NCBI GenBank assembly: GCA_902781515.1
Contig: CACZJU010000011.1
Coordinates: 25,026 to 89,025 of the forward strand
DNA from: an uncultured Bacteroidales bacterium
GTDB taxonomy: Bacteria > Bacteroidota > Bacteroidia > Bacteroidales > Bacteroidaceae
Direction: 5' to 3'
Length of the DNA stretch: 64,000 nucleotides
The notes beneath the pieces were generated by a model. The model had not been told where the DNA came from. It saw nothing but the letters and a program-made list of their open reading frames with translations, and searched no databases. A program made the translations under genes and the position numbers. Positions 8,038 to 64,000 of this stretch are shown here, in pieces (the first letter of the stretch is position 1; each line of letters starts with the position of its first letter).

Positions 8038-8072
8038 GTTTTTTTCACTCTTCACTTTTCACTCTTCATTAA

Positions 8073-29200: not shown

Positions 29201-30160
29201 ATTTTTCAAACCTACTTTCAAGCTACGATCTGTAACAAGAGTTTCTACAGAATTCACATATTGTCCAGATGTAAAAGCTGTCGAAGCGCCTGCCATATCA
29301 GCACTAGTTCCTTCACCATTAGCATTTAATAGAGCTATGACAGACTGATTTGTATTAGCATAGAGATATGTTTGGTTACTTCCATCTGCATTGTTATAGA
29401 AAGCTTGGTTATATAATTTATATTTACCATTAGCAACAGTTTCACTGATTGTCTGAGAAATATCAAAACCCTTACCATACATTTCTGCACATGGATTTTC
29501 CTTCAGGCCTCCTGCTGTATTAGTCCAATCTTCAGTATTTGACCACGTCATTAATTCCCATGGATGATGAAAATCTGTATTACGTAACAGATAGGTATAA
29601 TCTCCTACGTCCTGACGGGCAGATTTAGGAATAATCAACCAATAAGATTTAGCATCCGCAGTAGAGGAACCAAATCTAAGAAAAACGCCCAATTTACCCT
29701 GATATAGTCCATCGGCCGTTGCATGATACAAATAGTTAGAGTCGTCTATTTTAATTGTATACACGTTTGTATATCCAGCATAAGAAACTGAGGTGAAAAT
29801 AAAATCACCTTTATTATCACTCGTACCATCACCATCAACGAAAGGTTCTCCACTACCATTCTTAAATAAATAACCAGCTTTAGCATCGCTTCCATTAGCA
29901 GAAACTGGTGTAGAATAGATTGAGAATCCATTGGTAGCTGCCGCCAATGTTACTACTCGACCCGCATGATCCACTGTAGCATGTGTACCATAATCCATTC
30001 CCTCGGTTAAGAACATCCCCGAACCAATGTTGTAAAGGAAATAATCTGATCCCGCTGCAACTTCCACACCGGAAGTATAAGTGTGATTGTAGGAGGCTTG
30101 CGCAAACAAACCAACCGAGCACAATAGTGCTACGGCTAAAGAAAGTAATTTTCTTTTCAT
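26225..30160 (-). CDS. Large modular secreted/surface protein with T9SS-type tail
   Basis: 1311 residues. Signal peptide MKRKLLSLAVALLCSVGLFA. Four jelly-roll, carbohydrate-binding-like modules are visible at about 185-340, 445-583, 712-850 and 980-1120, each with NPSFENG..GW-type starts and DNFQLTY-type ends. Two helical FIVAR-like linkers (about 588-705 and 855-975; LTEVxGxM) alternate with them and are clear internal duplicates. A beta domain follows (about 1125-1270), then a C-terminal tail IYNLAGQRVQKAIKGLYIKN, ending KVVIK, typical of Prevotella T9SS cargo. No catalytic motif was seen; I infer glycan binding or adhesion at the cell surface. Confidence 0.8.
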   Translation of the reverse strand: MKRKLLSLAVALLCSVGLFAQASYNHTYTSGVEVAAGSDYFLYNIGSGMFLTEGMDYGTHATVDHAGRVVTLAAATNGFSIYSTPVSANGSDAKAGYLFKNGSGEPFVDGDGTSDNKGDFIFTSVSYAGYTNVYTIKIDDSNYLYHATADGLYQGKLGVFLRFGSSTADAKSYWLIIPKSARQDVGDYTYLLRNTDFHHPWELMTWSNTEDWTNTAGGLKENPCAEMYGKGFDISQTISETVANGKYKLYNQAFYNNADGSNQTYLYANTNQSVIALLNANGEGTSADMAGASTAFTSGQYVNSVETLVTDRSLKVGLKNSTTAGNAWSIMDNFYLEYLGNNVEYYAPTTTVFSEGKSVVKDTWYACNISAGNYRISADAAVTLSYTQDGTKDVDDEDFEKFVIAKDGNVRANLTSGTLYFKSSADGNITIEQVWANDANITSSFITNPSFENGTPNYYNGWTVTVSSGSSTSDEQKRYKDGGLGDESAHRFYIWTENAGAATIKQTLSSLPAGNYKLSAYMSSEANDVFTLTAGGTSKKVIAADGSATLVEVYFTQDTEGNVDISAKHSNAWFSLDNFQLTYNPTLPASLTEVSGKMKGSVSTEQSTAISTYNTSKTFANLLSAQTAMNNAVDSRIVYNNIATIRSNYETKAGALDDAGQSAYSTATNVASTGAETMYYEGTYTTASEAETAYSRDYITAVKAQTTENTDMTEAIVNPSFESATAADQTTMTGWTNSGLKTQNNTAFAKAGTYYVEQYHVSGDKYIKQTLTGFHSGVYTLTAVAHANGNTTSPKLYVKVGETESSTAVSSSKDYSVSFNYDGTSTLEIGFSATLDGEGWVCVDNFRLTYDAAALPESLTEVTGYMNADVRTAANTAIATYNSSKTLENYSAAQAAITDAEASRAVYVTINGLKTTYQGKADALDAAGQAAYTTAINTASTGAAEKYENGTYVTALEAELAFMADLAAASKTQTTAGANMTGAIINNSFETGTTDGWTYTASNDHGAKENSNDTYKMTGVDGSYLFNIWSTGNAISQTLTGMPAGTYRLTAVMGTDKGTDESHTLYLNLGGETGSAASVDKGTGVVVSVEKTLATAGDLTVGADAGGSQWYKVDNFQLTYLGISKNLTVAAKAGKYGTIIFPFTPNVSTGYDNITFYSCNSVSGEVLQLSEVDSPAANTPYIIKNEGGDFSLNVNGYGDRGLNDSYTSGFLTGVYTASTVEAGNYVLQTQSGVQGFYKVNGDGLTAIPYRAYLTVPSGVKAFFFDATDGINNLNVNDDLNKNEAIYNLAGQRVQKAIKGLYIKNGKKVVIK

Positions 30161-30199
30161 AAAAGTAATAAGTTAGTTAAGTTTTCGAATTTGCGGGCA

Positions 30200-30624: not shown

Positions 30625-30716
30625 AAAGTGTCTATCGTGATTAACACATTTAGCCTAAAAGTGTCTATTGTGATTAACATATTTGGTCGAAAAGTGTTTA
30701 TCGAGAAGAACAATAG
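30625..30716 (+). repeat. Three 33-bp direct repeats in the ATPase leader
   Basis: Units start at 30625, 30658 and 30691. The first two are nearly identical and the third keeps only AAAGTGTTTATCGAG. Each full unit holds an imperfect palindrome, GTGTCTATC-GT-GATTAACAC. Confidence 0.85.
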
Positions 30717-31954: not shown

Positions 31955-32099
31955 GTTGCAGCGTTGCAGTTGTTGCAGTTAAAAACAGGGAGAATGAAAA
32001 GACGAAAACAGACTCTATATTTATATATATAAATATAGAAGTAATTTTAGGGTTTGGGGAAGGCTGTAAAAGAACTGCAACAACTGCAACTGCAACGCA
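31955..32099. repeat. TTGCAG/CTGCAA inverted-repeat element
   Basis: Left arm 31955-31980 is built from TTGCAGTTG-like hexamers and is complementary to the right arm at 32073-32099, which has one extra hexamer. A perfect 26-bp AT palindrome at 32014-32039 sits in the middle. Confidence 0.8.
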
Positions 32100-32105
32100 T
32101 GACTG

Positions 32106-32296
32106 GGTCTTACTATCCCTATGCGGTAAGGGATACTAATCCTCCCGGGCAAGGGATAGTATCCCTCCGTCGGAAGGTTATATTAACCTGTGGCGATAGG
32201 TTATATTAACCTGTGGCGATAGGTTATATTAACCTGTGGCGATAGGTTATATTAACCTCTGGCGATAGGTTCGCCGTCTTATCGCCAAAGGTTGGG
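32106..32296. repeat. Palindrome ladder 1 (23-bp period)
   Basis: Units of a 15-nt imperfect palindrome plus an 8-nt spacer. Cores include AGGGATAGTATCCCT and four copies of AGGTTATATTAACCT; spacers include CCCGGGCA, CCGTCGGA, GTGGCGAT and CTGGCGAT. The 23-bp register is exact from 32129 to 32266 although early cores differ from later ones. Confidence 0.9.
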
Positions 32297-48405: not shown

Positions 48406-50652
48406 TTACTCTCGCACAATCGTAAAGTTTAATTGCTTGCGCTCGAGGTTGGCGGAAGCAATCTTTATGCGGACTTCATCGCCAAGCGAATAGCGACGGT
48501 GAGAGCGACGGCCCCAAAGACAGTACTGCTTCTCGTCGAACTCATAGTAGTCATCATCGAGGTCGCGCAAAGGCACCATACCTTCGCACTTATTCTCGTT
48601 TATCTCCACATACAGACCATATTCCGTAACTCCGGATATTGTGCCGTCGTACTCTTGTCCGATGTGGTCTTGCATGAATTCCACTTCCTTATACTTGATG
48701 CTGGCGCGCTCGGCAAGTGCAGCTGTCTGCTCCATGCTGCTGGCGTGCTCGCACAGTTCCTCGTATGTGCGCTTCATCACACTTCTTCCACCTTCGGCAT
48801 AGCGCGCCAAGAGGCGGTGAACCATAAGGTCGGGATAGCGACGTATGGGCGAGGTGAAATGTGTATAATAGTCGAAGCCCAGCCCGTAGTGACCGATATT
48901 CTCCGTACTGTATTTCGCCTTCATCATGGCTCTTAGAGTCACCATCTCCACCAGATTTCTGGCCTTGGTATTCTTGGCATCGTGCAACATCTTGTTGATG
49001 CTCTGACTCACCATCGTGTTTGTGCCTGTGGGTTTGAGCTTAAGACCGAACTTCACGACAAACTCCGACAAGTTCATGAGTTTATTCTGGTCGGGCTGTT
49101 CGTGAATACGATAAACAAACACCTTACCGCCATTGTCTTTTGCCTTTTGCCCTTTGCCCTTACCTCTTTTCCCAATGCTCTCGGCAACGGTGCGGTTCGC
49201 CAGGAGCATAAATTCCTCCACAAGCTTGTTGGCATCCTTTGCCACCTTGAAATATACTCCCAGAGGCTTACCTTTTTCGTCAATATCGAAGCGCGTTTCG
49301 CAACGGTCGAAATCCACAGAACCTTCTTGGAACCTGCGCTTACGCAGAGCCTTTGCCATACGGTTGAGGGTGATGAGTTCGGCAGAGAAATGTTCTGCAG
49401 GCTCGTATTCTGGACGCTCTGGGTCAACGTGGTCGCCAGGGTTCTGGTAGTCCTCGGGACTTGCCTCGCCATGTGCCTCCAGTACCTGTTGCACTTCCTC
49501 GTAGATGAAACGGCGGTTCGAGCGTGTTACCGTCTTTGCAAGATGCCAGTCCTTCACATGTGCCTCCTCGTCCATAAGGAAAATGACGCTATAGGTCAGT
49601 TTGTCCTCATCGGGTCGCAGCGAGCACACATTGTTGCAAAGACGTTCGGGCAGCATGGGGATGGTACGGTCCACCAGATAGACACTTGTGCCACGTTTCT
49701 GTGCCTCGCGGTCGATAATGCTGCCTTCTGTGACATAGTGCGACACATCGGCAATGTGCACTCCCACCTCATACATTTTGAATTTTGAATTTTGAATTTC
49801 TCTAATTGATATGGCATCATCAAAGTCCTTCGCATCACGCGGGTCAATGGTGAAAGTCATTACGTCGCGCATATCCTCGCGACGGCGAATTTCCTCTTCA
49901 GGAATCTGGTCGCTGATGCGGTTGGCAGCATCCTCCACCTGTTGTGGATAGCTGTATGGTAGTCCAAACTCAGCCAGTATGGCGTGCATCTCTGTCTCGT
50001 TCTCGCCAGCCTGTCCCAGTACCTCCACCACCTTGCCAATGGGGTTCTTGGCATCGGCTGGCCATTCCTGAATCTTCACCGTCACCTTATCGCCCTGCTT
50101 CGCCCCCTTCATGTTGCGGCGCGGAATCAGTATATCGTTCGCCAGAGTACGGTCTTCGGTTATGAGGTAAGCCAAGTCACGATGTACATCCAGTCGTCCC
50201 ACGAAGGTCTTGTCGGCGCGTTTCAGTATCTGCGTCACCTGTCCCTCGCGCACGTGGTTGCGACGACGAGCCATCATGGTCACACGTACGCGGTCGCCGT
50301 CCATAGCGTGCATAGCATTGCGTTCTGCCACCAGTATGGGCTGACCACCCTCGTCGGGCAGGAATGTGTTCTTGCCGTTGGCTTTGCGAGTAAACACTCC
50401 TTCCATCACCTGACTCTGCTGCTTCAGTCCGTAGCAGTACTTGGGCTTCTCGGTTATGTAGTCGTCGGCCAGCATGGTTTCCAAGATGTCGTAGCACAGC
50501 ATCTTGGCAGGATGAGTATCCAGTCCCAGCAGTCGGAACACCTCTTTCAGTTCATAGCGCTGTGTGGGATGTCCCTCGAACAGCCCCATCACCTTCTCCA
50601 CCATCTGCTTCTTCGTGATGCGCTTGGCACCCTTGTTCTTTCCCTTACTCAT
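48406..50652 (-). CDS. rnr: Ribonuclease R
   Basis: 748 residues. N-terminal winged helix and two cold-shock domains (about 1-230), the RNB catalytic domain with DPRDAKDFDDAISIR (metal-binding aspartates) and a C-terminal S1 domain (about 655-745). It is the 3'-5' exoribonuclease for structured RNA. Inside the RNB domain, GKRGKGKGQKAKDNGGK is a Lys/Gly-rich insertion encoded by a 7-bp repeat of the same family as in the neighbouring ABC gene. Own promoter at 50696-50703. Confidence 0.95.
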   Translation of the reverse strand: MSKGKNKGAKRITKKQMVEKVMGLFEGHPTQRYELKEVFRLLGLDTHPAKMLCYDILETMLADDYITEKPKYCYGLKQQSQVMEGVFTRKANGKNTFLPDEGGQPILVAERNAMHAMDGDRVRVTMMARRRNHVREGQVTQILKRADKTFVGRLDVHRDLAYLITEDRTLANDILIPRRNMKGAKQGDKVTVKIQEWPADAKNPIGKVVEVLGQAGENETEMHAILAEFGLPYSYPQQVEDAANRISDQIPEEEIRRREDMRDVMTFTIDPRDAKDFDDAISIREIQNSKFKMYEVGVHIADVSHYVTEGSIIDREAQKRGTSVYLVDRTIPMLPERLCNNVCSLRPDEDKLTYSVIFLMDEEAHVKDWHLAKTVTRSNRRFIYEEVQQVLEAHGEASPEDYQNPGDHVDPERPEYEPAEHFSAELITLNRMAKALRKRRFQEGSVDFDRCETRFDIDEKGKPLGVYFKVAKDANKLVEEFMLLANRTVAESIGKRGKGKGQKAKDNGGKVFVYRIHEQPDQNKLMNLSEFVVKFGLKLKPTGTNTMVSQSINKMLHDAKNTKARNLVEMVTLRAMMKAKYSTENIGHYGLGFDYYTHFTSPIRRYPDLMVHRLLARYAEGGRSVMKRTYEELCEHASSMEQTAALAERASIKYKEVEFMQDHIGQEYDGTISGVTEYGLYVEINENKCEGMVPLRDLDDDYYEFDEKQYCLWGRRSHRRYSLGDEVRIKIASANLERKQLNFTIVRE
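49137..49166. repeat. 7-bp repeat (GGCAAAA family) inside rnr
   Basis: About four units, CTTTTGC/CCTTTGC on the plus strand, which on the coding strand are GGCAAAG-like. They encode the basic insert in the RNB domain. Confidence 0.8.
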
Positions 50653-50740: not shown

Positions 50741-50936
50741 ATGGTACTAATACCTATCGCTGAAGGATTACTATCCCTATGCGCATAGGAATACTATCCC
50801 TCCCTGCCAAGCATTACTATCCCTTCGTGTCAAGCATTACTATCGCCTGCTGCACAAGGCCTAGACCTTATTGCCATAAGACCTGCGTCTTGTTGTCGTA
50901 AGACCTAGGTCTTATCGAGATAACCTCTGCGACCTT
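50741..50936. repeat. Palindrome ladder 2A (22-23-bp period)
   Basis: Nine cores of 14-15 nt separated by 8-nt spacers. Cores include AGGATTACTATCCCT, AGGAATACTATCCCT and AAGACCTAGGTCTT. Spacers ATCGCTGA, ATGCGCAT, CCCTGCCA, TCGTGTCA, TGCTGCAC, ATTGCCAT, GTTGTCGT and ATCGAGAT are all different. Confidence 0.88.
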
Positions 50937-50968
50937 TGCAAATTGTCGGAAAAACATGCATCGCGCGT

Positions 50969-51210
50969 AAAACCTCACAAACTCCCCCAAGTCCGATGAA
51001 TAAAGGGCTCGCCAGTGGGAGGTTTGTTCGTAAAAGTCACCCAAACCTCACCTAAACCTCCCATTTTACCTTAAAATCTCTCTTACCAATTCATTTTGCA
51101 TGAGCATCATCCAAGAGGGGAGGTTTATGGACTTTCGGGTGAGGTTTGAAAGCAAATCTCACCGCCTCCAGCCCTTTATTCATCGGACTTGGGGGAGGTT
51201 GTGAGGTTTT
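50969..51210. repeat. 41-bp inverted-repeat element (242 bp)
   Basis: The left arm 50969-51009 and right arm 51170-51210 are reverse complements at 40 of 41 positions. The 160-bp interior has a second level of CAAACCTCACC/GGTGAGGTTTG and AAACCTCCC/GGGAGGTTT complementarity. No open frame. Confidence 0.9.
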
Positions 51211-51240
51211 TTGCGATTACAACTATTTTTCAGGCATAAC

Positions 51241-51479
51241 AGATTATTATTATCTGTGCCCATAGGTTAATATTATCTCCGTCTATAGGTTAAGTTAACT
51301 TGTTGACGAAGGTACTAGAACCTATCGCCACAAGTTCTAGTAAACGGCTTGCCGCTTGCGTAGCGTAGAGGAGCAAGAACCTAAGGCCAAAGGCTAAGCT
51401 AACCTACCTGCATAGGTTCTAGTACTTAGATCAATATGGACTAGTACCTGTAGCAATAAGGTCTAGTATTTGTATTACA
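51241..51479. repeat. Palindrome ladder 2B (22-23-bp period, partly interrupted)
   Basis: Cores such as AGGTTAATATTATCT, AGGTTAAGTTAACTT and AGGTACTAGAACCT with spacers GTGCCCAT, CCGTCTAT, GTTGACGA and ATCGCCAC. The register is interrupted near 51346-51375 and resumes with AGGCTAAGCTAACCT and AGGTTCTAGTACTT. Confidence 0.8.
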
Positions 51480-52016: not shown

Positions 52017-53199
52017 ATGATACGAGATTTTTGGGTAAAGAACTATCTTTCCATTCGCAACAAGCAGGAATTAAGCTTCGTGGCCAAGGGACCATCTTCA
52101 GAACTTGTCACCGACGTTGCTGATGGTGTGTTCTTGTACAAGTTAGGCATCTTATATGGTTCAAACGCTTCTGGCAAGTCGAATATGCTGATTGCCATGA
52201 ACGAGGTGTTCCGTCTGTTGGTCTTGCCAAAGTCGGATGCGACAGTCGAAATTGGCGGTTGCATTCCCTTCGTGCTCACCAAAGATGAGCCAACAGAAAT
52301 GCATGTGTCATTCTATGCCGATGGCACCCGATATGACTACGATGTCAAGTTCAACGGCAAGCACATTCTGAGTGAAGCCTTGTACTATTATCCCAATAAA
52401 TCCAAATCGCTATTCTACGAGCGCAGTTTTGTGGGTGAGAATGTACAGGCCGATATAAAGTTTGGTGCGAGTCTCAAACTTCAAGTCAAGACGCAGGAAA
52501 GCATCCGCGAAAACACACTGAACAACCATAGTGTCTTGTCCGTTTGCCGAAAGGCAGCCTTGAAAGAAGACATAGCTCCATTCAATGCGCTTCATGCTTG
52601 GATTATGGCCAATTATCACGATGTGGACGGCGATGTAGAAAAGGGACTTGTTGAAATCCTAAAGGATGCTTATAGCAATCCTAAGAAGCGTAAGTTCTAT
52701 AATACGATGCTCCAGAAGGCCGACTTGAACATTCTGGAATATCGTCCTGTTGTTGAAGACCGCATTGTCCCCAACGATTTCCGCGAGCGTATCCAGAAAG
52801 AGAACATCCCAGAGGAGATGAAAGATGTTCTGTTGAAGCCAACCACAGATTCCATCACTTTCTTGAACCATTCCGAGAATGGCGACTTTGACATTCCCCT
52901 CAGATGGCAGTCAAAGGGTACTCAAAAGTATATCCGCATTCTCGATGCATTATACGACTTGATAACGAGTCCTCACGTGTACTATCTTGATGAATTGCCT
53001 TCTGTCGCAGGACATGATTAACGAGAACAGAGGTGTGGTGTGGTTTGTCGAGAAGAACAAAGAGACTGCTTCTTCCGAATATGCTCGTGGCGACTCCTTT
53101 GGCTTGCACAAGAATCTCTCGCTTTACAATTCATACCGCATTGGCCGATTGGGAGCCAAGCCTGAACTTGGTAGTATCTTTATAAATTTAGAGGACTGA
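52017..53199 (+). pseudogene. RloA-like AAA ATPase with internal deletion and frameshift
   Basis: The first frame (52017-53021) encodes an ABC/OLD-class ATPase: Walker A YGSNASGKSN near residue 50, signature-like QSKGTQKYIRILDAL, and Walker B VYYLDEL. It then leaves frame (PSVAGHD-stop). A second frame from about 52987 reads LLSQDMINENRGVVWFVEKN to LGSIFINLED, the normal C-terminus of the family. The D-loop and H-loop region between Walker B and LLSQD, roughly 35-40 residues in homologues as I recall them, is missing. The ATPase is therefore probably dead. One nucleotide after its stop starts an RloB-like gene, so the pair is an RloA-RloB type defence module. Confidence 0.8.
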
Positions 53200-53200
53200 T

Positions 53201-53812
53201 ATGGGAAAGTTACGACAAACAGCCCTCATATTGGGAGAAGGACCAACGGAGTTCTTCTACTTCAAGTCCCTATGCGACGTGTTCAAGCGTCTGACCATCA
53301 AGCCAGACTATCCGAAGCATACCAACATCAAGGAATTGGATGCCAAGATAGCAGAGGGTGTGGCAATGGGCTACAGTCATATCTTCTGCATCATCGACAT
53401 GGACACGAAGGACAAGGAGCCGGAGCGTTCCCAATACCAGAAGCTAAAGGCAAAGTATGCCAAGCCCATCGACAAACCAAAGAAAGGCATCTACTGCGAG
53501 GTTGAGTTCTTTGAGACCCACCGCTGCACAGAACTATTCTTTCTCTATTATTTCCGATACACCTCTCGTCCATACGATGAGCAGGAGCCATTGCTCAAAG
53601 ACCTGAACCAATGCGTGGAGTATCGGAAGACGATAGAGTTCTTCATCAAGACCAAAGGACTTCATGGTTACTTTGAGCGCAATGGCGGTAGTCTTGATAA
53701 GGCGATAGTCAATGCAAATCGGTCAATGGATGAGAAGCTGGAGAGTGGTAGGGATTATACTTACTCGGAACTTGGAAGGTTGATGGAAAATTTAAAAAGC
53801 ATGGGAAAGTAA
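53201..53812 (+). CDS. RloB-like TOPRIM-fold protein
   Basis: 203 residues. TOPRIM-style acidic residues are visible: Glu13 and Glu17 in ILGEGPTEFFYFKSL and Asp66/Asp68 in IFCIIDMDTKD. RloB proteins are encoded next to RloA ATPases, originally noticed beside restriction systems, and related ATPase/TOPRIM pairs (OLD-like, PARIS-like) act as anti-phage effectors. The gene is intact, but its partner ATPase is broken. PARIS AriB (DUF4435) is an alternative; the start pattern favours RloB. Confidence 0.75.
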   Translation: MGKLRQTALILGEGPTEFFYFKSLCDVFKRLTIKPDYPKHTNIKELDAKIAEGVAMGYSHIFCIIDMDTKDKEPERSQYQKLKAKYAKPIDKPKKGIYCEVEFFETHRCTELFFLYYFRYTSRPYDEQEPLLKDLNQCVEYRKTIEFFIKTKGLHGYFERNGGSLDKAIVNANRSMDEKLESGRDYTYSELGRLMENLKSMGK

Positions 53813-55075: not shown

Positions 55076-56446
55076 TTAGTATAAGCAATATAGTGACTTG
55101 TAGTTCTTGGCGACATCGTAGATGTAACTGTTATCGCTGATGGCCTTGAAGTGGCGACGGGCACATTCTATCTTGCTTTCCTCAGAGCCTCGGAGCTGGG
55201 AGCCCTGAAGGTCATTGCCTTTTGACTCAGCCACGAAATAGACGTGCTTGACACTTCCTTCCTTGAAGGCTACTGCCCAGTCGGGATTGTACTTTCCCAT
55301 CGGGGTGTTGATGTAGAAGCCATTGGGCAACTTGGTATAGACCACCACGTCATCTTCGTGCTCCAGCGATTCGGCGAAGTTCTTCTCCGTACCCATGCTG
55401 TCGAGCACCACGAGGTCGTAGAGCAACTTGGTGGATTCGATAGCGTTGATGCCCAACTTGCCGCGAAGCATGTTTTCCGTAAAGATGTCTGTCGAGAACT
55501 TGTCGTTCAGTTTCTCATACTTGACACATTGGATAACGGCAAGTGCCTTGCAGTCATTGATAATCAAACCAGCCTTGATGATAAACTCCTCTGGATTCAG
55601 CTTGAACAGATGGAACGTTGTGGACTTAATACCTTTCAGAATCTCGACTATCGTCTTACGAGTCAAGCCTGTAGCCGTAACCAGTTTGCCGATAAGGTCG
55701 TATGTTACTCCCTTGCCGATAGCCTCTGTAACATGGATGGTACGAGTGTTTCCCTGAGTCATGGCTACACCTACCTCCAAGGATTCTTTATCACGCACGT
55801 TATCAAGAGAGCCACCCTCTACCACAATGCGTATCTCCGTTACTTTCAGGTTATCGTCCAATGCCTTGATGGACTTCTTCGCAAGGTCAGACGTGTCGAA
55901 GTTCACCTGATAGTAAGTGCGCTGGTTGATGCGTTTCCAAAGATTCTGGAACTCCTTCTTGTCAAAGTTTTCCTGCTGGAAGTTAGCTGTCTTTGGTTTA
56001 CGTGCGTCTTCTGGCTTGACAGATGACGGATTGAATACCATATCAAGTGCGGCAATAATGCCATCCTTCAAATCGTTAACCTTACCAAAGTCAAGAGTGC
56101 CATTTCGCTTAGCTTCATGATATTCCGCTGTCAAAGCTCCTTCGTCATCAACATAATCTTGACGTATAAGGGCATTGTAGATAGCACGAGCTTGCGCAAG
56201 GTCAAAGCGTCCGTTGGTTCCGTCGGCTTTAGTATAAGGCTTACCCTCAAAAAGGTTTGGAGTTATGATGATACGTCTGTCAGCACATGCTTCAGCCATT
56301 TCTGTCTGGAGTTTCTTGGCAAAGTCATCATAACTCTCACTGGCTATAACAGTGAGGATATTGGTATCAAAGACGTGATCACCCAACACATCAGCATCCT
56401 GACGCTCTCCGTTCTGGTTCACACACAGGCGTACGTCACAAATCAC
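55076..56446 (-). pseudogene. Type III restriction enzyme (Res), C-terminal fragment
   Basis: 456 residues of an intact frame that matches only the part of type III Res subunits after helicase motif VI: it enters at RLCVNQNGERQDADVLGDHV where full-length proteins have GRGLRLCVNQ. The endonuclease site is present (PDWAVAF near 388 and ESKG near 407-410, PD-ExK). The about 500 residues with Walker A and helicase motifs are gone, and no mod methylase gene is nearby. The fragment abuts the mobilization-gene remnant head-to-head at about 56440. Not expected to be functional. Confidence 0.85.
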
Positions 56447-57170
56447 TCGAAGAGCATAACCGCGAACTTCATCGCGAGAACAAATCTCTCGAAGAGGAAC
56501 TTGAAACTAAGCGTCGTGCCGTGAAAGGACTCACCACCATGATTGAGAATCTTACTCGTCGGCAAGAGGAAATCCAATCACAGATTGCAGAACTTGAAGC
56601 GCAACAGCAGAAATCAGACTCCAACAAGGAGGATATCTTACGCCAGATAAAGTTCCTCAATCAAACGCTGACTGAAATCAGAATCAATTTGAGAGAAAAG
56701 CAAGGAAAACTTGACCAAGTCAATCGTGACATGGACATTCTCAAATCAGCCTATGATACAAAACAGAAAGGGTTGGACGCCATCATGAAGAAGGATAATG
56801 TCATGATAAACTATATCAACTCAGATGCCGAGATTATTCTCAAAGCTTCCATTTTTGATCAAGTGCTATATAAAGCAGTCAAAATATGCCGAGAAATCCC
56901 CGGAACAGAAGCGATGGCAGAGGACACATTCATTGATGACCGTAACAATTTCGTTGGAAGGATGTGCTAAGCACAGGTATGAGAGTATTCATTGCCGGAA
57001 TAGATGGCGCGACTGGCGTAGCCCAGGTGTCAGGCGGTGGCGGCACGTCAAACGATATGCCGTGGCGAGATAAGGATGAAGACTTTCTCGATTGGGCCCG
57101 CCGTGCTATGCGATATGCCCATGTTAAACATTATCCTGGTAATAGGTTCAAACGGTCGTTGAGCAAATAG
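56447..57170 (+). pseudogene. Mobilization/plasmid-recombination (MobV-like) protein, C-terminal remains
   Basis: From the junction at about 56447 the frame reads SLEEHNRELHRENKSLEEEL, into a long coiled coil (LTRRQEEIQSQIAELEAQQQ) up to a stop at 56970. A shifted frame then carries the typical relaxase tail GGGGTSNDMPWRDKDEDF to 57170. The N-terminal relaxase domain is missing. The pattern is that of Bacteroidales MobV-type relaxases on mobilizable elements, so this marks an old integrated element. Confidence 0.75.
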
Positions 57171-57240
57171 TCCTCGCGCGTTATATATAATAATGAGTGG
57201 CTTCCGCTATATTGGGAAAGTTACTCATTTATTTTACCGA

Positions 57241-57768
57241 TCAATCATCTTCAGGGAAATACTCATAATAAATATCACCTATGGTATCAGCAAAACCCCA
57301 TCCGCATGGGGAGACCCACTCCATACACTGTCTCAAACGAGACTTGAAGTGCTCCAACATATTATTCTTGGCTATGAATGCCATTGTTTTGTCGAAGTTA
57401 TTCTCTACAGATGTGTAATACTGCTCCCACATGTCGCCATAATCATATGTAAACTGGCATGCGTTTTCAACATAGCAAAGCATCAAATCAGCCAACTTGT
57501 CTGGAGAAGGTTTCAGTTTCTTGTAGTCCGAGACAGCCTTCCGGCAAACCGAGAATCTGGTCTTTGGCTCCTGTCGTCCTTTTGATGGATAAAACTCTTC
57601 TGTGATAATCTTCTTATACTCTTCCAGTTTACCATCCTCATCAGGATTAGCATAGAACTCCAGATACTCCTTTGCTTCTTTGCGAGCATCATACATCTCC
57701 AATACCATGCCAATGATTTCTTCCTTTGGCATAGCCATAAGTATTTTCTTTACTGTTGCTTTTGACAT
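57241..57768 (-). CDS. DUF6155-like protein
   Basis: 175 residues, starting MSKATVKKILMAMPKEEIIG, with conserved-looking KAVSDYKKLKPSPDKLADLM and GWGFADTIGDIYYEYF. I recognize this as DUF6155, an uncharacterized helical family common in Bacteroidetes. It lies 12 nt downstream of jetD on the same strand, so it may be transcribed with the Wadjet operon, but it is not a known Wadjet subunit. Confidence 0.7.
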   Translation of the reverse strand: MSKATVKKILMAMPKEEIIGMVLEMYDARKEAKEYLEFYANPDEDGKLEEYKKIITEEFYPSKGRQEPKTRFSVCRKAVSDYKKLKPSPDKLADLMLCYVENACQFTYDYGDMWEQYYTSVENNFDKTMAFIAKNNMLEHFKSRLRQCMEWVSPCGWGFADTIGDIYYEYFPEDD

Positions 57769-57780
57769 GTTATTACAAGA

Positions 57781-58641
57781 TTAAATAATTATGTATCCTT
57801 CCTGATCATAACATCTATGATAATTGTTTATTGTATCAATAAGATGTTGAAGATAGGGAATGTTTGTTTTTATGTTCTTGAACTTGAAATATTGTGCATT
57901 GTACCTTTCTAAAGAACCATTTGGCAATCTCTGTTCTATATCTGATGGAATAAAGAATGAGCTACGTTCTCCTAGATAGGTATGAAATTCCGTAAGGAAA
58001 ATGCTTATACCAGCAAGGTCGAAATCTCCGAAATGCACATATCGGTTGGGGATGGACTGCAACCAAGAACGAAGGTCAGAGGATTGTGGATAACGGGAAG
58101 CAAACAGAAAACGGTCGGAGCCTATTGTCCGCTCAAACAATGCTCGCTGCTGGCGAATCATACGAAAATTCTCCATGTTCTCTATTCCTACGACTACGAC
58201 ATCTTGGGGAATAGTGAACGACTGCCAATCCGAAATAAACATGAAGCTTCCTTCCTGAGGATTTACAATCATTTCATGACCATTCAACAAACACGCAATC
58301 GGTTCGTATGTGTTTATGGGAAACCCCGGACATGAACGAACAGCGATGAGCTTTGAATTGCCTGTAGCTGATGCTTGCACAGAACGGGATGTATTACCAG
58401 CTTGCAATGTGTCTAGCATCAAATCCAAATCTGATAATCTTTCGTTAAAGGCAGACAAAGCTTGTATAAATGATTCTGGCTGAGGGACAAAGAGGACGCG
58501 ACGGCTACCATGAGAGGTGCTGACTATCACACCATCATTCTCCAACTCACTAACCCACTCTCCGCGAAGCTGGCTGGCAGGTATGCTTTCTCCATTTCGA
58601 AGCCGGATGAGTTTTTCGATGAGAGATGCTGTTATCTTCAT
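57781..58641 (-). CDS. jetD: Wadjet subunit JetD (TOPRIM-type DNA endonuclease)
   Basis: 286 residues. An N-terminal winged-helix-like region (about 1-60) and a C-terminal TOPRIM-type site: Glu154 in VGIENMENF, then Asp206 and Asp208 in HFGDFDLAGISIF. In Wadjet systems JetD cleaves small circular DNA after loop extrusion by JetABC. The gene overlaps jetC by 4 nt (ATGA). Shorter than type I JetD, consistent with a type III-like Wadjet; the subtype call is tentative. Confidence 0.85.
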   Translation of the reverse strand: MKITASLIEKLIRLRNGESIPASQLRGEWVSELENDGVIVSTSHGSRRVLFVPQPESFIQALSAFNERLSDLDLMLDTLQAGNTSRSVQASATGNSKLIAVRSCPGFPINTYEPIACLLNGHEMIVNPQEGSFMFISDWQSFTIPQDVVVVGIENMENFRMIRQQRALFERTIGSDRFLFASRYPQSSDLRSWLQSIPNRYVHFGDFDLAGISIFLTEFHTYLGERSSFFIPSDIEQRLPNGSLERYNAQYFKFKNIKTNIPYLQHLIDTINNYHRCYDQEGYIII

Positions 58642-61600
58642 TTCTGCGAGATTAATGGGTGAACGATAGTCTTTGACTTGCCATCCTTTTGCAAGAGGTA
58701 GGTATAACGATAGTCAGAGACATTATAGGTCGTGGGGGATGAATTAATGAGCAGGATGTTGCGAGCATTGGCAAAGTCAAGTATTCCCTTTACATTCTGA
58801 GGATGCAGTTTGCCTATCTCATCCATCATGCAATGGATATAAAAGTCGCCAAACTTCCGGCTCACCTTCTCCTTAAACACATTGATGAGCATAATGTTGA
58901 TCATCGCTTTGACCAGTGTGTCGGTACCCTCGCTGCCCACGTGCGAAAGTTTGTCTGCCCACCCTGTATCGTTGTCGTTTTCAATGATACGGAACTGCAA
59001 CTGGAACAGGTCGGAGAGAGTCAGATACTGACGTGATGGGTTATCTGTCAGCGACTTCATGAAGTCGAGCAAATGACTGACAGCTTTCTGGTTTACCTCA
59101 TCGTGGTGGATGGTTGAGAACAGGTTCATCTCACCCATGACAAACTGATTCTCGTCGTTGAACTCCTTGATACGCTTCATCAGCTGCACCATTTTGTCAG
59201 TCGAAGGAACAGACTGCAAGGCGATGAGTTTGATAACGCCGACAAAGTTGCGTTCCTTGAAATCTCTGTTGATGTCGTGAATAATTTTATCAACGTCCGA
59301 CTCATGGCGCGTCAGTTCACCCATTTCCTTTGATACGCGTGCCAGAATTTCCACATATCGTTCACTGGTACGACGGCGATACTCTTCCAGTTTGTTGTTA
59401 ATGAGGAAGTCGTCGAGGTTGTTGGCGAAATCGAGGTAGTCCTCGTCGATTGTCAGTTCTGTCCTGAAACTGAATGTATTCTTCATAGAGAAATTGCCCT
59501 TGAAAACATTAACACTCTGCTTGAACTGATTATGACGAGTCTGACGCTGCACAATGATTCCTGTCAAATCGTTAACAGCCTGTCCCGGAGTACGCAATGT
59601 TTGTTTCTCTTTTGCCTCGGCAAACATGGGTGGGCACAGGTTTTCATCATGTGCAAAACGGTCAGCCTTTTGTAGTTCTTCATTCAGATGTTTCCGCTCG
59701 TCACCATGCTCTGTCAATTCCTTACCTACGGCTGTGAACTGCTGGTCATACTTCTGTTTTCGCTGCTGATACTTCTCATTCAGTTGCATCAGCTTTTCTG
59801 AGAGCGTTTTCTTCTGATTTTTCAGGTTATCTTCCTGGTCAAAGAGTTCTTCTTTGTCTCGCAGATAGTCGTACACCAGTTTTCGATGCTCGTCAATAAA
59901 GCGAATTTCATCTTCTGCAGCTTTTATCTGCGCCTTGCAATCCTCAACAAGCATTGTATCTGCACCACGGCCTTTCAGCTCATCCAACTCTTGTTGCTTC
60001 AGCTTCAGCAGTTCAGCCTCAGCATTCTGCTCGGCAATCGTAGTTTCGGTATTGATAGTAGCTACACGCTCAGCATGTGTTTTTACATTCTCAGCCTTTG
60101 CATCATTATATTTCTTCTCAGCACCATTCAACTGCTTTTGCTTATCGGTATTCACCTTCTCAAGAGCAGATAGTGCGGATGATAATCTGTGGGCCAGCTC
60201 CTGCTGACGGGATGTAAGCTCCTGCTGACGTTGCTCGATAATTTGCTTGGCTTTAGCCTCATAGTCTTCAATTCTCACAGCAATAGCTTTACGCTGTTGA
60301 GGAATCATACGGAGCTCCGTTTCTGCCAGCGACTTCTGCTGGCGAAGCTCCTTTATCTGAGGAGCGAACTGGCGCTTCAACACTTCGATAGCCTTTTCTT
60401 GCTGATCCTGAATCTGATGCCATTCGTCCTTAGCCTGCTTCAATTCTTTCTCCAGAATTGCATTCTCTTCCTGAAGCTGTTTCGGCTTCCTAACATTAAG
60501 CGGAAGGTCGGTCAAGTCAAGTTTTACGCCATACAAGGAAGCACCTTCTGCCTTCTGTGGATGTAGGCCTGTCTGATAAAGCACTTTTTCTTCGTTGATA
60601 ACCTTTCCGATATTCTGTTCCCAGTCGGCCTTGTTCTCTTCAAGCCATTCATAAAGCGAACCTTTTGTGCGTTCAAGTAATCTGGCAACAGAAGCTATCT
60701 GTTCTGAATACTTCTCAATCTCTGCTTGTTTTTCTTCTGACTTTCGTTGGTAGTCTGCATTTGTTTCAGTCTCTTTCTTGTCATATTCTGCCTGAACGCG
60801 GTTGATGTCGGAAGCCAGTGAGCTGATTTTGCCTGTCAGTTCTTTCTCTTTGAGTTGCAGTTCATTCAGTTGTTGATTCTGCGACTCCTTTTCTTCTTTG
60901 AACGGTACGAGATACTTTAATTTCAGAAGTTCCTTTTCACAATCATTCTGCTCAAACTTTACAGAATCTATCACATTCGAAGCATCTGCAATTTTCTCTG
61001 CAAAAGACTGTTCTATCTCTGTCCTCGTTTCATTATATGCTTTCAGCAAACGCTCGTCTGTCTTTTGCCTTTCTTGCTCTTCCGAGAGGATGCGCTGCTG
61101 CTGAGTCTGTCGGAATGATTCCAGTTGATGGGTGATGTTCTGACGCAAAGCTTTGTATTTCGAGGTGACATCGTTGAAGCGTGCCGTCAGGTCGGCCAGT
61201 TTGTCTTTAAGACTATCAAGTTCAGCCTTCACACCCTGCTCCTTCGCACAACGGCTCATCACACTTTCTATCTGCTGTGCAGAATAGTATTCCTTCCGTT
61301 CCTTCAGACGCTTCAGCTTGTCATTCAAAACACCCTGTTCCTGGTTCAACGTCGCCTTCTCTGCATCATGCTTTTGCTGGATTTCCGAGACAAGGCGCTT
61401 CAGTCGGTTTTGTTCCTGCATCATCTCCGCAATCCTGGCCTCAACCAGAGGGAGTCTTTCTCGCGCAACACGTTCGGCGTATTTCAGTTCGCAGCACAGA
61501 TTTTCAATCTGCTGCTTCATATAGAGCAGTTCGTGGAAGTACTTTACCACAGTGTCGGCCTGTTTTCTTACTAATGATTCGCCCTTTTGGTTCAGCTTAT

Positions 61601-62285
61601 ACCAACAGGAAATATCCTTGTACTCCTGTTCAAAGTCTGCCACTTGCCTGCGAAAATAGCCCAGGTCGATATTCGCCTCCTCATTACTCATCGAACGTAT
61701 AATGATATCCTTGATGAAATTGGCATCCAGGCGCGAGTTAAGAAAGACGTTCTGTATGCTTCGGGGGATATTCTGGTAGCTGCTGGTTTCCAACAACCGG
61801 AAACGGGCAAACTCTTTTCCCTCGGCGTGCTTGTTGCCATAGATAATGTCGCGGTACTGCTCATAGCGGTCGACAATCTTACTCATATAGGCACCACCAA
61901 GTCGCTCGCGTATAACCTTCCCTTCTGCCGTCACCTCTCCATGGTCATCTACAAACCATTCTTTCTTGTAGGCAGCATCTACAAACCTGTAACATGCCCT
62001 GCCTGACGAACGGAACACAAGGATACAGAACGGCCCGTGCTCGTGCTCAACCTCATAGACTATATACGAATTGGCATGAGGCAAATAGAATTCGTCGAAC
62101 GACTTCATCTCCTTAGGTATGCCCAGATGCAGCTTGTCGGCATTATAGAAAAACAGAATAGCTCTGAGCAAAGTACTCTTACCTACGCCTTGCGTGCCGA
62201 TGAAATGAACATTGCCATCCAACTTCACTTCTACATAGCGGATGTTGGCACTGTTGATAAAAACTATTTTACGTAATGCTCTCAT
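58638..62285 (-). CDS. jetC: Wadjet subunit JetC (SMC/MukB-like ATPase)
   Basis: 1215 residues. Walker A GTQGVGKS (30-37) at the N-terminus, two very long antiparallel coiled coils (about 230-430 and 600-890) around a hinge, and a C-terminal head with signature GSEGTDTLVKAMINIMLIN and Walker B YIHCMMDEIGKLHP. This is the loop-extruding SMC motor of Wadjet. All motifs are intact. It overlaps jetB and jetD by 4 nt each, so the operon is tightly coupled. Confidence 0.92.
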   Translation of the reverse strand: MRALRKIVFINSANIRYVEVKLDGNVHFIGTQGVGKSTLLRAILFFYNADKLHLGIPKEMKSFDEFYLPHANSYIVYEVEHEHGPFCILVFRSSGRACYRFVDAAYKKEWFVDDHGEVTAEGKVIRERLGGAYMSKIVDRYEQYRDIIYGNKHAEGKEFARFRLLETSSYQNIPRSIQNVFLNSRLDANFIKDIIIRSMSNEEANIDLGYFRRQVADFEQEYKDISCWYKLNQKGESLVRKQADTVVKYFHELLYMKQQIENLCCELKYAERVARERLPLVEARIAEMMQEQNRLKRLVSEIQQKHDAEKATLNQEQGVLNDKLKRLKERKEYYSAQQIESVMSRCAKEQGVKAELDSLKDKLADLTARFNDVTSKYKALRQNITHQLESFRQTQQQRILSEEQERQKTDERLLKAYNETRTEIEQSFAEKIADASNVIDSVKFEQNDCEKELLKLKYLVPFKEEKESQNQQLNELQLKEKELTGKISSLASDINRVQAEYDKKETETNADYQRKSEEKQAEIEKYSEQIASVARLLERTKGSLYEWLEENKADWEQNIGKVINEEKVLYQTGLHPQKAEGASLYGVKLDLTDLPLNVRKPKQLQEENAILEKELKQAKDEWHQIQDQQEKAIEVLKRQFAPQIKELRQQKSLAETELRMIPQQRKAIAVRIEDYEAKAKQIIEQRQQELTSRQQELAHRLSSALSALEKVNTDKQKQLNGAEKKYNDAKAENVKTHAERVATINTETTIAEQNAEAELLKLKQQELDELKGRGADTMLVEDCKAQIKAAEDEIRFIDEHRKLVYDYLRDKEELFDQEDNLKNQKKTLSEKLMQLNEKYQQRKQKYDQQFTAVGKELTEHGDERKHLNEELQKADRFAHDENLCPPMFAEAKEKQTLRTPGQAVNDLTGIIVQRQTRHNQFKQSVNVFKGNFSMKNTFSFRTELTIDEDYLDFANNLDDFLINNKLEEYRRRTSERYVEILARVSKEMGELTRHESDVDKIIHDINRDFKERNFVGVIKLIALQSVPSTDKMVQLMKRIKEFNDENQFVMGEMNLFSTIHHDEVNQKAVSHLLDFMKSLTDNPSRQYLTLSDLFQLQFRIIENDNDTGWADKLSHVGSEGTDTLVKAMINIMLINVFKEKVSRKFGDFYIHCMMDEIGKLHPQNVKGILDFANARNILLINSSPTTYNVSDYRYTYLLQKDGKSKTIVHPLISQK

Positions 62286-62824
62286 GACTCTTCTGTTTCA
62301 ATGATCGTGAGACAATCTATCAGTTCTTCGATGTAATGGAAAGCGGCGGTCACCTTGTAGGTGCCGTCCAGCTCATTCTCCAGTTCCACGAATCCCATTC
62401 GCTCTAAGTCGCCTACCAGCTTCTCTATTTTCTCTTCGTTGGTCTTGACATCCGTATAGAGGTTGCGTGCCTTTTCCTTGAGTTCGATGTCGCTGGAGAA
62501 CTTTTCGACGATGTTTGATTTACGGAAGGTAAAACCCGGCGCAAAGGTGTTGTTGAAGGTCTTGAGAAAATCCACACGGTCAATCCACAATGCCAGGCGT
62601 TGCACCTTATCTGTTAGTTCCATCCTGTTCTCGGTTCTTGAGAAATAGTAGTATCCATTGCCGCCCTCCAACAGGAAGCCTATGCCGCTGAAGTACTCCT
62701 GATAGTCGTTGAAGTCATCCTCAATGGCATCGTACAAGTGGGAACGCTGCTGCGAGATTGAGTTCTGGGAGATAAAACCGCCCTTGCTCAGTATGTCGAA
62801 TATTTCTTTTGTATAACGCATCAT
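62282..62824 (-). CDS. jetB: Wadjet subunit JetB (MukE/KITE-like)
   Basis: 180 residues, winged-helix-rich (MRYTKEIFDILSKGGFISQN; LVGDLERMGFVELENELDGT). Position between kleisin-like JetA and SMC-like JetC and length fit JetB, the KITE dimer that bridges the kleisin. It overlaps jetC by 4 nt and begins 6 nt after jetA. Confidence 0.85.
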   Translation of the reverse strand: MMRYTKEIFDILSKGGFISQNSISQQRSHLYDAIEDDFNDYQEYFSGIGFLLEGGNGYYYFSRTENRMELTDKVQRLALWIDRVDFLKTFNNTFAPGFTFRKSNIVEKFSSDIELKEKARNLYTDVKTNEEKIEKLVGDLERMGFVELENELDGTYKVTAAFHYIEELIDCLTIIETEES

Positions 62825-62830
62825 AATTGT

Positions 62831-64000
62831 TTACATCATCTTTGTTTGTGGATAGATAACGGGATATTCGATGGCTCCATACTGCTTGTATTCATTATCG
62901 ATATGCAGTTCGTCTAGATATTGTGAGGCTATCTGGCAGAAGAGAACAAGTTTTGCTTCATCATCCATCTTGATTCTGTAGCCGGAATAGTTCATGACGA
63001 AGTGAAACAGATGGTCACCTGATGCCATGAAAGCATTCTTCACCTCGTTCACATCAACCATCTGCAGCACCTCCTGCTGTTCTGCCAATTCGCTCTCCGT
63101 CAGAGGGTCTGCCAGATTGCCTTTCCGCAGCCGACTATTGCCCTTCCCTTTGGCGACATCCTGCAGCGCCCGGAGCCCATCTTCCGAGTTTCGAAGCATG
63201 GAGAGCGATACTTTCAGCGCGTATCTCGGACGGGGTTCCATCCATACGGGATTCCTAGTCTGCAGCTTTGCCTGTATGTCAGTATTTGTGTCGAGCAACA
63301 TCTGGTCGCGCAGATACTTCAACTTCTGTACTTTCTGAAACAGACGACTTTGGTATTCTATGAGGTTCAGGTAATTGATAATCTGGCGGTCCAACTCCAA
63401 TAGGTTATGATATACCTCACGCAGTTGCAATTTCACATCCGTCACGATGTCTTTTAACTGTACGTCCATCGCCACCATGAAGAAAGTGGTCTGTTTCTCG
63501 TCTATCACCCTTTCGCATTCGTTGATTAGGGCTGCAATGTCCTGACGTCTCTCATCCAGATACACCAGTTTCTTTTTCTTGATGGCGAAGGTTGGTTCAT
63601 TCTTGTAAGTGTTGTCAATGTTGCGCTTCAGGTCGATGACATTCCGCAGCGTGGTGAGCGCAATGTTACGCAGTATCCGTTTAACGTCGCGCAGATAGCC
63701 GTACTTACGGCTGGGATTATTCTCGCTGAGATAGTAGTCGATGGCATTGTTCAGACTGCCGATGCTCTCCTTGACGCTAGCCACATTGATTTCCTCGTTC
63801 ACCTCCAGCACATCCTCGAAGAATTTCAGATATACATCCTCCAGTTCCACAAAGTCGGCATTTTCGCGGATGATACCATATCGCTTCAAGAAATCAATGC
63901 TTTCATCTCTCTTACTTGCCAGTTCACGTGCCAGGTCATACCTAAACGACAGTTTCTTCCTGTCTTGGAATAGCGCATGAAGCAACCTGCGCTCCCTGTC
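62831..64000 (-). CDS. jetA: Wadjet subunit JetA (MukF/kleisin-like), partial
   Basis: The frame is open from the right edge (DRERRLLHALFQDRKK...) to a stop at 62831, 389 codons visible. An internal TTG at 63985 is not needed as a start, because the frame continues past the window edge. Mostly helical, with coiled-coil segments (about 140-230) and an acidic C-terminal winged-helix part, as for the JetA kleisin. First gene of the JetA-B-C-D order on the minus strand. The N-terminus and promoter lie outside the window. Confidence 0.85.
   Translation of the reverse strand, partial: DRERRLLHALFQDRKKLSFRYDLARELASKRDESIDFLKRYGIIRENADFVELEDVYLKFFEDVLEVNEEINVASVKESIGSLNNAIDYYLSENNPSRKYGYLRDVKRILRNIALTTLRNVIDLKRNIDNTYKNEPTFAIKKKKLVYLDERRQDIAALINECERVIDEKQTTFFMVAMDVQLKDIVTDVKLQLREVYHNLLELDRQIINYLNLIEYQSRLFQKVQKLKYLRDQMLLDTNTDIQAKLQTRNPVWMEPRPRYALKVSLSMLRNSEDGLRALQDVAKGKGNSRLRKGNLADPLTESELAEQQEVLQMVDVNEVKNAFMASGDHLFHFVMNYSGYRIKMDDEAKLVLFCQIASQYLDELHIDNEYKQYGAIEYPVIYPQTKMM

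Follow-up and report, generated by a model that had tools for sequence, protein, structure and literature searches.

Repetitive extragenic palindromic (REP) elements often lie at the 3' ends of genes, and a role in mRNA protection or termination has been proposed for them. In the Bacteroidetes, a subclass of TnpA-REP is flanked by what its describers call 'atypical secondary structures' (PMC6006769). The BrickBuilt MITE of Porphyromonas gingivalis and P. gulae is a 23-bp, head-to-tail intergenic repeat that occurs in many copies and is predicted to form stem-loops; its leader and tail enclose repeats of a single type (PMC4596501). Prevotella intermedia carries PINSR, a 188-bp repeat present in 177 and 184 copies in two strains (PMC4755523).

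The DNA analysed here, a stretch of 64,000 nucleotides referred to below as the window, sits in contig C11 of a 2.46-Mb assembly of 46 contigs. It carries ladders, arrays in which palindromic cores of 14 or 15 bp are each followed by an 8-bp spacer, which gives a period of 22 or 23 bp. Our tentative reading is that these ladders belong, broadly speaking, with the REP/BIME class of extragenic palindrome arrays and most likely serve as dyad-site platforms for a dimeric, sequence-specific protein.

The composite tract and its copies in the source genome

Ladders were located at two places in the window by a parser whose score combines palindromy, edge letters and spacing. Ladder 1 (32129-32280, 7 units, score 22.7), also reported by a tandem repeat finder and matched by a covariance model described below (R1, at C11:57196-57287), comprises two units of the core type that we call T4, four AGGTTATATTAACCT units and one degenerate unit. 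Two further ladders had been described in an earlier note on this DNA, and the parser recovered both of them. Ladder 2A (50742-50936, 9 units, score 18.9) passes from T4-like (AGGATTACTATCCCT) to T1-like (AAGACCTAGGTCTT) units and has a degenerate outermost unit at both ends. Ladder 2B has a first part in which T2-like units are followed by AGGTACTAGAACCT (51241-51323, 4 units, score 11.4), also matched by model R1, and a second part whose last unit is AAGGTCTAGTATTT (51369-51471, 5 units, score 9.7). A ladder unit with a longer hairpin insert at its centre (51332-51382, about 51 nt in total, read by eye) interrupts 2B between these two parts. A weaker chain at 30118-30178 (3 units, score 7.6) was left out of the ladder count. 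The layout of 14-15 plus 8 bp that the note had ascribed to all of these tracts is borne out by the parser, as is its remark that nearly all cores and spacers differ, with 88 distinct strand-collapsed cores in a set of 194 units. Adjacent units share an identical core in 7.5% of 133 pairs.

The hairpin insert (query positions ~600-642) has matches in six other genomes (G001, G014, G017, G021, G026 and G028). At 51340-51382 it is a hairpin repeat with a GGAGCAAG end, plus GCTTGCGTAGCG, lying inside ladder units, and it appears to be a separate repeat family with a wider distribution.

Ladders 2A and 2B enclose an inverted-repeat element of 304 bp (50937-51240), an imperfect palindrome over most of its length that is 70% self-complementary and has its best arms at 50969-51009 and 51170-51210. 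The three parts form one composite, flanked by an RNase R gene (48406-50652, minus strand) and by an AAA_21 / RloB gene pair (52017-53812). Four further near-full copies of the central element, at 87-91% identity, were found in L016, L017, L023 and L043, and the loci fetched from the source genome held five partial copies (L018, L028, L031, L040 and L044). Where it is preserved, the order T4-T1 ladder, inverted repeat, T2-T3 ladder recurs as judged by eye, while L018 and L037 are rearranged; at least two other sequence classes, again by eye, occupy the middle part in L019, L034, L035, L039, L042 and L045. Within this genome the arrays may have spread as pieces of that composite.

The earlier note had placed an inverted repeat immediately beside the ladder at both loci, and this is indeed the arrangement found, with repeats at 50969-51210 and, next to ladder 1, at 31963-32090 (arms 31963-31980 and 32073-32090; L049 1189-1316). 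The latter has arms made of a tandem 9-mer and a 92-bp loop with an AT-rich palindrome, and its sequence is unrelated to that of the repeat at 50.9 kb. Across the source genome, with the ladder masked, an inverted repeat was present no more than 400 bp away at 17 of 42 ladder loci as against 1 of 57 random windows, and the neighbouring repeats comprise many unrelated sequences. Among intergenic controls, one was seen in 0 of 9 cases from the 64-kb window, in 2 of 27 from G001 and in 0 of 35 from G017. A rule for the whole genus was rejected on the evidence of the relative G025, where an inverted repeat was found at 1 of 61 arrays and in 1 of 55 gaps free of arrays. The inverted repeat beside the ladder is a feature of the source genome, not of the genus.

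Several smaller repeats were observed in and around these tracts. Inverted repeats whose arms are locus-specific tandem 7-9-mers (L025, L026, L027, L029, L030, L031, L038, L041, L046, L047 and L049), with loops of 72-140 bp, some of which contain AT-rich palindromes by eye, form a curious element type of their own. A repeat composed of AT-centred palindromes (CCAAATTTGG, GGGAAATTTTTCCC, GCGCAAATTTGCGC) adjoins the ladders of L016, L031, L043 and L045 (outer end of ladder B), as read by eye. In the window, a 33-bp direct repeat in 2.4 copies (30625-30703) lies just upstream of an AAA_14 ATPase gene. Tandem 7-8-mers and one 14-mer, with 80-100% matches, lie at 8042, 11045, 21888, 33907, 34031, 37886, 42104, 42167 and 49775; the one at 11045 is TGAGAAAA, whose reverse complement is found at 42167.

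The parser found chains in 39 of 40 loci of the source genome, namely the tract, ladder 1 and 38 loci fetched because BLAST matched them to the tract; the sole miss was L044, and shuffled versions of the loci (50-nt windows, 3 passes) gave none. A cruder test, which used only 5-of-7 palindromes at a spacing of 21.5-24 bp, returned ladder 1 as the longest chain of the window with 6 units, a length also reached in 1 of 200 dinucleotide shuffles; it gave 4 units for 2B and did not list 2A. By palindromes and spacing only, 2A and 2B alone would therefore not stand out; they owe their significance to edge letters and spacing and to their recurrence across the genome.

The note's suggestion of a genome-wide family is confirmed by that recurrence. 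In the source genome there are 83 BLAST matches to the 739-bp tract and 89 matches to R1, a covariance model built on a pair of T2-type units. Nine loci among the R1 matches listed were absent from the BLAST set, which brings the total to at least 48 ladder loci. R1 was built from A3, that is from 19 two-unit windows out of 33 windows with two 15-bp cores. Because the model is biased to T2 cores, its matches in 7 of 81 genomes of the genus (89 in the source genome, 72 in G017 and 2-4 in each of the other five) set a lower bound; G001 has no R1 match, yet ladders are present there. Carriage of the 739-bp tract by plasmids or phages was rejected, neither the plasmid collection nor the phage collection giving a match, and one T1 pattern had no match in viral contigs.

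Core types, arms and the layout in relatives

By sorting rules of our own, most cores fall into four types, T1 (AAGACCTAGGTCTT), T2 (AGGTTAACTTAACCT-like), T3 (AGGTTCTAGAACCT) and T4 (AGGGATAGTATCCCT), and 94 of 333 parsed units remain untyped by these rules. The note had spoken of cores that grade along the array; the types sorted here are discrete.

It had further been proposed that neighbouring cores are related by stepwise mutation compensated between the two arms. For this analysis units were anchored by edge letters only, so that the inner pairs were unselected. Over the 88 distinct cores, inner pairs 4-6 were complementary at a rate of 0.519, compared with 0.326 ± 0.029 when right arms were permuted, an excess reached by 0 of 2000 permutations (14-mers 0/2000; 15-mers 2/2000). 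In 75 adjacent pairs of units with both arms different, the arms facing each other across the spacer had a likeness of 0.60, 0.53 and 0.41 at pairs 4-6, above that of the far arms of the same units (0.36, 0.51 and 0.28). When permutation was confined to a type, complementary two-sided changes were in excess in T1 (14 versus 7.6 ± 2.5; 9/1000 permutations) and showed no excess in T2 (263/1000), T3 (371/1000) or T4 (225/1000). Excess at single pairs was seen at pairs 3 and 6 of T2 (z 2.7 and 4.6) and pair 3 of T4 (z 2.2), and unsorted units show more of it. The units in this within-type test were picked by palindromy, a bias that favours the arm-compensation idea. The proposal therefore stands as an excess of matching arms across core types and largely fails within them, where it is clear only in T1; as a general rule it was rejected in view of the two-sided changes in T2-T4 and of G025, whose arms do not covary.

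Adjacent unit pairs in G025 follow the pattern CGCA-N6-TGCG-N8-CGCA-N6-TGCG, of which this genome has 659 occurrences; G000, G001, G013 and G029 have none, and a reversed-pattern control also gave 0. In 440 kb of this genome we counted 96 arrays or singles (35 of them singles) with 195 units in all, and 99 of 99 start spacings were exactly 22 bp with 21-24 allowed. The oriented consensus, CGCA-n-CGTG-n-TGCG, is fixed, and positions 5 and 10 are free. These free positions are uncoupled: complementarity at pair 5 was 0.369 against 0.422 permuted over the 195 units and 0.364 against 0.306 over 44 distinct cores (703/3000), and positions 5/10 in 169 oriented units gave 0.355 against 0.409, with no complementarity across units either. 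A fixed motif with free, uncoupled positions argues for a protein site, unlike a selected hairpin.

An edge-free detector with a threshold score of 6 was applied to 1134 kb of sequence drawn from 44 further genomes of the genus (L172, an N run only, was dropped before the counts). It returned 10 chains at or above the threshold. Without the stretches chosen for known ladders, namely L169 (G033, from an R1 match) and L193/L194 (G025, chosen via L074), there were 7 chains in 1082 kb, compared with 2 in three shuffled passes over the 1134 kb (P ~5e-6 for the excess), a sample that is not truly random in that the other G001 and G017 contigs were taken from earlier-match lists. RNase R loci, amounting to 104 kb, gave one chain (L074, in G025), which was counted apart. 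Besides the source genome, chains are present in G001, G013, G017, G025, G029 and G033. Fifteen other families of the order, sampled over 626 kb, gave 0 chains, where about 4 would be expected at equal density (P 0.017); one AT-rich chain there scored 5.6, under the threshold, and three shuffled passes over these sequences gave 2 chains at ≥6.

The cores are unrelated between genomes, being AAGACGCGCGTCTT and AGCGTTGCAACGCT in G001, TGCCACCGATGGCA and AAGATAGTTATCTT in G017, AAGCTCGTGAGCTT in G013, GGACTCAAGAGTCC in G029 and CGCACCACGGTGCG in G025, and the 14-15 plus 8 layout is common to them. So is the centre of the spacer. In chains of the other genomes scoring ≥5.5, GGC or GCC lies near the spacer centre in 19 of 31 distinct spacers (6.2 ± 2.1 shuffled), or in 11 of 21 (4.2 ± 1.7) without G025; for the source genome the figures are 57 of 121 and 17.9 ± 3.5. 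This suggests that the ladders are a repeat family of this genus that serves a DNA-binding or copying machine. It is possible, if somewhat doubtful, that lineages inherit the geometry (a 14-15-bp dyad and an 8-bp GC-centred spacer in a 22-23-bp phase) but each re-invent the palindrome, which would make the ladders a genus-wide class. A quickly diversifying partner, either a protein that binds DNA or a mobilising enzyme, would then have to evolve together with its sites, of which a genome can have up to hundreds.

Presence at any one place is patchy. The RNase R loci of nine relatives (L051-L059, 3.6 kb) contained no chain, and the neighbour of RNase R is a different gene, by eye, in G001, G058 and G046 (L051, L052 and L054). 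Beside the DUF3127 gene of L028 (identified by Pfam scan), the source genome bears T4/T1 units, a ladder of six units with different cores (AACGCCTAAGGGTT and variants) is present in G017, and G001, G026 and G058 have no ladder. Such patchiness, here and in the spread of R1 matches over the genus, is consistent with neutral, selfish repeats: a functionless minisatellite borne by a MITE, growing by slippage and kept palindromic by template switching at quasi-palindromes. The near-full composite copies and the nine matched places that lie <500 bases from a contig end also point that way. We consider this explanation unlikely, since the exact 22-bp spacing of the G025 pairs and a spacer signature common to unrelated cores both look constrained, and the tendency to arm compensation is not uniform.

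On the protein-site model that we favour, a dimeric protein would bind cooperatively along one face of the helix. The core dyad and the GC-centred spacer dyad alternate every ~11 bp, or one helical turn, with the full unit making two turns; from this geometry all dyads would lie on the same side of the helix. The recognition sequence would be particular to each lineage or core type, with the spacing and the spacer centre kept. Occupied arrays might in turn affect transcription or topology. In the 14-mers of the source genome palindromy reaches the centre (over 26 distinct cores, pair 7 is complementary at 0.73 versus 0.46 permuted). Bases at that point would be unable to pair in a hairpin loop, and this favours duplex sites; the 15-mers gave 0.42 versus 0.31 at the same pair. 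Against the model, the central pair in other genomes is not complementary (0.22), and the cores are too diverse for a single protein with one fixed specificity to bind every type. Among 30 flanking proteins scanned no ladder-binding protein was identified, the DNA-binding types among them being HU-HIG (L020) and HTH_18 (L039), once each.

Position at gene ends and a possible role in RNA

Gene orientations were taken from crude ORF calls. The ladders of the source genome lie between convergent genes in 14 cases, tandem genes in 12 and divergent genes in 3 (29 classified, 11 of 40 spans being unclassifiable); window gaps of ≥100 bp, a small control, were divided 4, 4 and 4. In G025 arrays occupied 12 of 33 convergent gaps, 13 of 68 tandem gaps and 3 of 43 divergent gaps (P 0.003 for convergent versus divergent). 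Counted per array, 17 were convergent, 17 tandem and 7 divergent, 18 of 61 lay within a called ORF, and 2 of 61 were unclassified for want of a gene on one side. By these crude gene calls, ladders are found mainly at the 3' ends of genes, above all between convergent genes.

The convergent preference was counted in favour of the protein-site model; such a position would also suit a role at the RNA level, in which an array, once transcribed, would fold into a single long hairpin and protect or terminate the mRNAs arriving from either side. Extended hairpins are indeed obtained when whole arrays are folded, whichever strand is taken (14 strands, z -1.8 to -13.9); this agrees with an RNA role and counts against the protein-site model. 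In G025, 41 of 61 arrays are followed by a T run or preceded by an A run, compared with 130 of 2000 random places, wrong-way runs numbering 5 and 11. Over all units, G-T mismatches exceed A-C mismatches (112 versus 84), as expected of a role on one strand of RNA. The excess is absent from distinct units (62 versus 60), an equality that favours duplex protein sites over hairpins, and the comparison of G-T with A-C is not decisive as a test of such a role. Other observations also argue against it. The mismatches at pair 5 of the G025 cores are uncompensated; the tracts of the source genome have a run in 9 of 49 cases versus 273 of 3000 random places, a weak effect; and no Rfam family reached its gathering score anywhere in the window. 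Of the 10 tandem cases in G025 that could be scored, the T run agrees with the direction of the genes in 6 and opposes it in 4, and the reading of these runs as intrinsic terminators was rejected. Overall, we judge an RNA-level role rather unlikely, and duplex protein sites continue to be our preferred reading.

The genes that adjoin ladders elsewhere are mostly ordinary. Of 51 flanking proteins listed from loci other than the window, 30 were scanned, and these included a tRNA synthetase, SHMT, FeoB and arabinose isomerase. Four were without a family, LRR_5 was the only family seen twice, and no transposase was among the 30. The association with AAA ATPase genes raised in the earlier note does not extend to these loci: a HerA-type ATPase is present, and 0 of the 30 proteins match AAA_14 or AAA_21, so that an AAA-ATPase neighbourhood was rejected as a general rule.

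The surroundings of the composite in the window include genes that resemble defence systems. At 52017-53812 an AAA_21 ATPase ORF (334 aa, AbiLi-like in PADLOC) is followed by an RloB/AbiLii-like gene, and judging from these matches the two are like an AbiL defence pair. The approximately 180 bases between the AAA_21 ORF and the RloB gene contain no ORF of ≥100 aa on that strand, and the ATPase may be shortened. Further along, at 55076-63985, are a fragment of a type III restriction endonuclease (456 aa) that matches only the C-terminal half of its profile, a DUF7281 protein and a 1215-aa protein that weakly matches the start of JetC (MukB-like). These defence-like genes are possibly a Wadjet-like set, which we presume from gene order.

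Comparison with known systems

REP, BIME and REPIN elements resemble the ladders in being extragenic, high-copy, species-specific palindromes that are often clustered and lie at 3' ends. The ladders differ in their strict tandem phasing at 22-23 bp, in their 8-bp GC-centred spacer and in having no GTAG-type foot. Just outside the palindrome, GTAG, GGAG, GTGG or CGTC was found at 3 of 694 junctions in the source genome and 0 of 320 in G025; counted so as to include the first core letter, CGTC occurs at 67 and TGTC at 81 of the 320 G025 junctions.

The resemblance raises the question of whether the ladders are REP elements moved by an HUH transposase, either TnpA-REP (RAYT) or a related Y1 class, with each palindrome matching its own enzyme. 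That Bacteroidetes have a TnpA-REP subclass with unusual flanking structures (PMC6006769) is in keeping with this, as are matches to Y1_Tnp above the cut-off in ladder-bearing G013 (67.7 and 23.3 bits) and G022 (88.5 and 44.8 bits), in a search whose positive control matched in E. coli. One G022 protein, with NHVH...FQ...YIHLNP, has the signature tabled for TnpA-REP subclass 2.1 (PMC6006769). About 0.7 kb from the other G022 Y1 protein, whose motifs are subclass-1.2-like, there is a GATTAC/GTAATC ladder with a 22-bp period of 15 + 7 (L267:2569-2649). On the other side, no Y1_Tnp match passed the cut-off in G000, G001, G017, G026, G033, G046, G025 or G029, assemblies that are incomplete, and the source and G025 assemblies differ in this respect from known REP/RAYT pairs. 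The other strong proteins of G022 and G013, ending in YIENQKEHH and YVSNQVEHH with DHVH/DHIH, are subclass-1.2-like, and that subclass is said to be without typical terminal structures (PMC6006769). Moreover, the 3.4-kb locus of the TnpA-REP-like gene of G022 is without the ladder core sampled from that genome, and no foot of the GTAG type stands outside the cores. We therefore regard movement by such an enzyme as improbable.

BrickBuilt is likened to the ladders by its unit. With the published consensus, four loci were retrieved from P. gulae; their arrays divide into 15 + 8 bp, and their core, AGACCATAGTATCCT, resembles the T4 core of the source genome around ATAGTATCC. At the level of the consensus the likeness is non-significant: the best match of the BrickBuilt unit in the source genome is 17/23 letters, the observed counts are reached by 4-6 of 60 shuffled consensuses, and 4 of 60 equal them at ≥15/23. 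The BrickBuilt terminal repeats GAGACCTTTGCA, with one mismatch allowed, have one match in the window (50929-50940) with no inverted partner; it was rejected as a terminal repeat, being at the level of chance (at least one match in 31 of 100 shuffles). As regards MITEs in general, the composite recurs and some relatives are without a ladder at the orthologous place. In arrangement the ladders differ from BrickBuilt, the arrays of the source genome being of four types that flank a central inverted repeat. PINSR, compared by description only, is likewise a lineage-specific intergenic repeat with no terminal inverted repeats reported, and differs in having a single 188-bp unit (PMC4755523).

If the reading as protein sites is right, one genus keeps the geometry of a repeat and swaps its sequence, in up to hundreds of gene-end copies per genome. 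That pattern is the expected trace of co-evolution with a rapidly changing protein, as in REP/RAYT pairs. Ladder DNA would provide a concrete bait for this partner protein. No published description of these ladders was found in the open-access literature, most subscription papers lying outside the scope of the search. On the basis of these open-access searches, we regard the ladders as an apparently unreported variant of REP/BIME-like repeats, and one that would provide a wider layout with which the isolated BrickBuilt repeat of Porphyromonas can be compared. Among the systems described so far, BrickBuilt is the nearest in layout and REP/BIME the nearest in kind.
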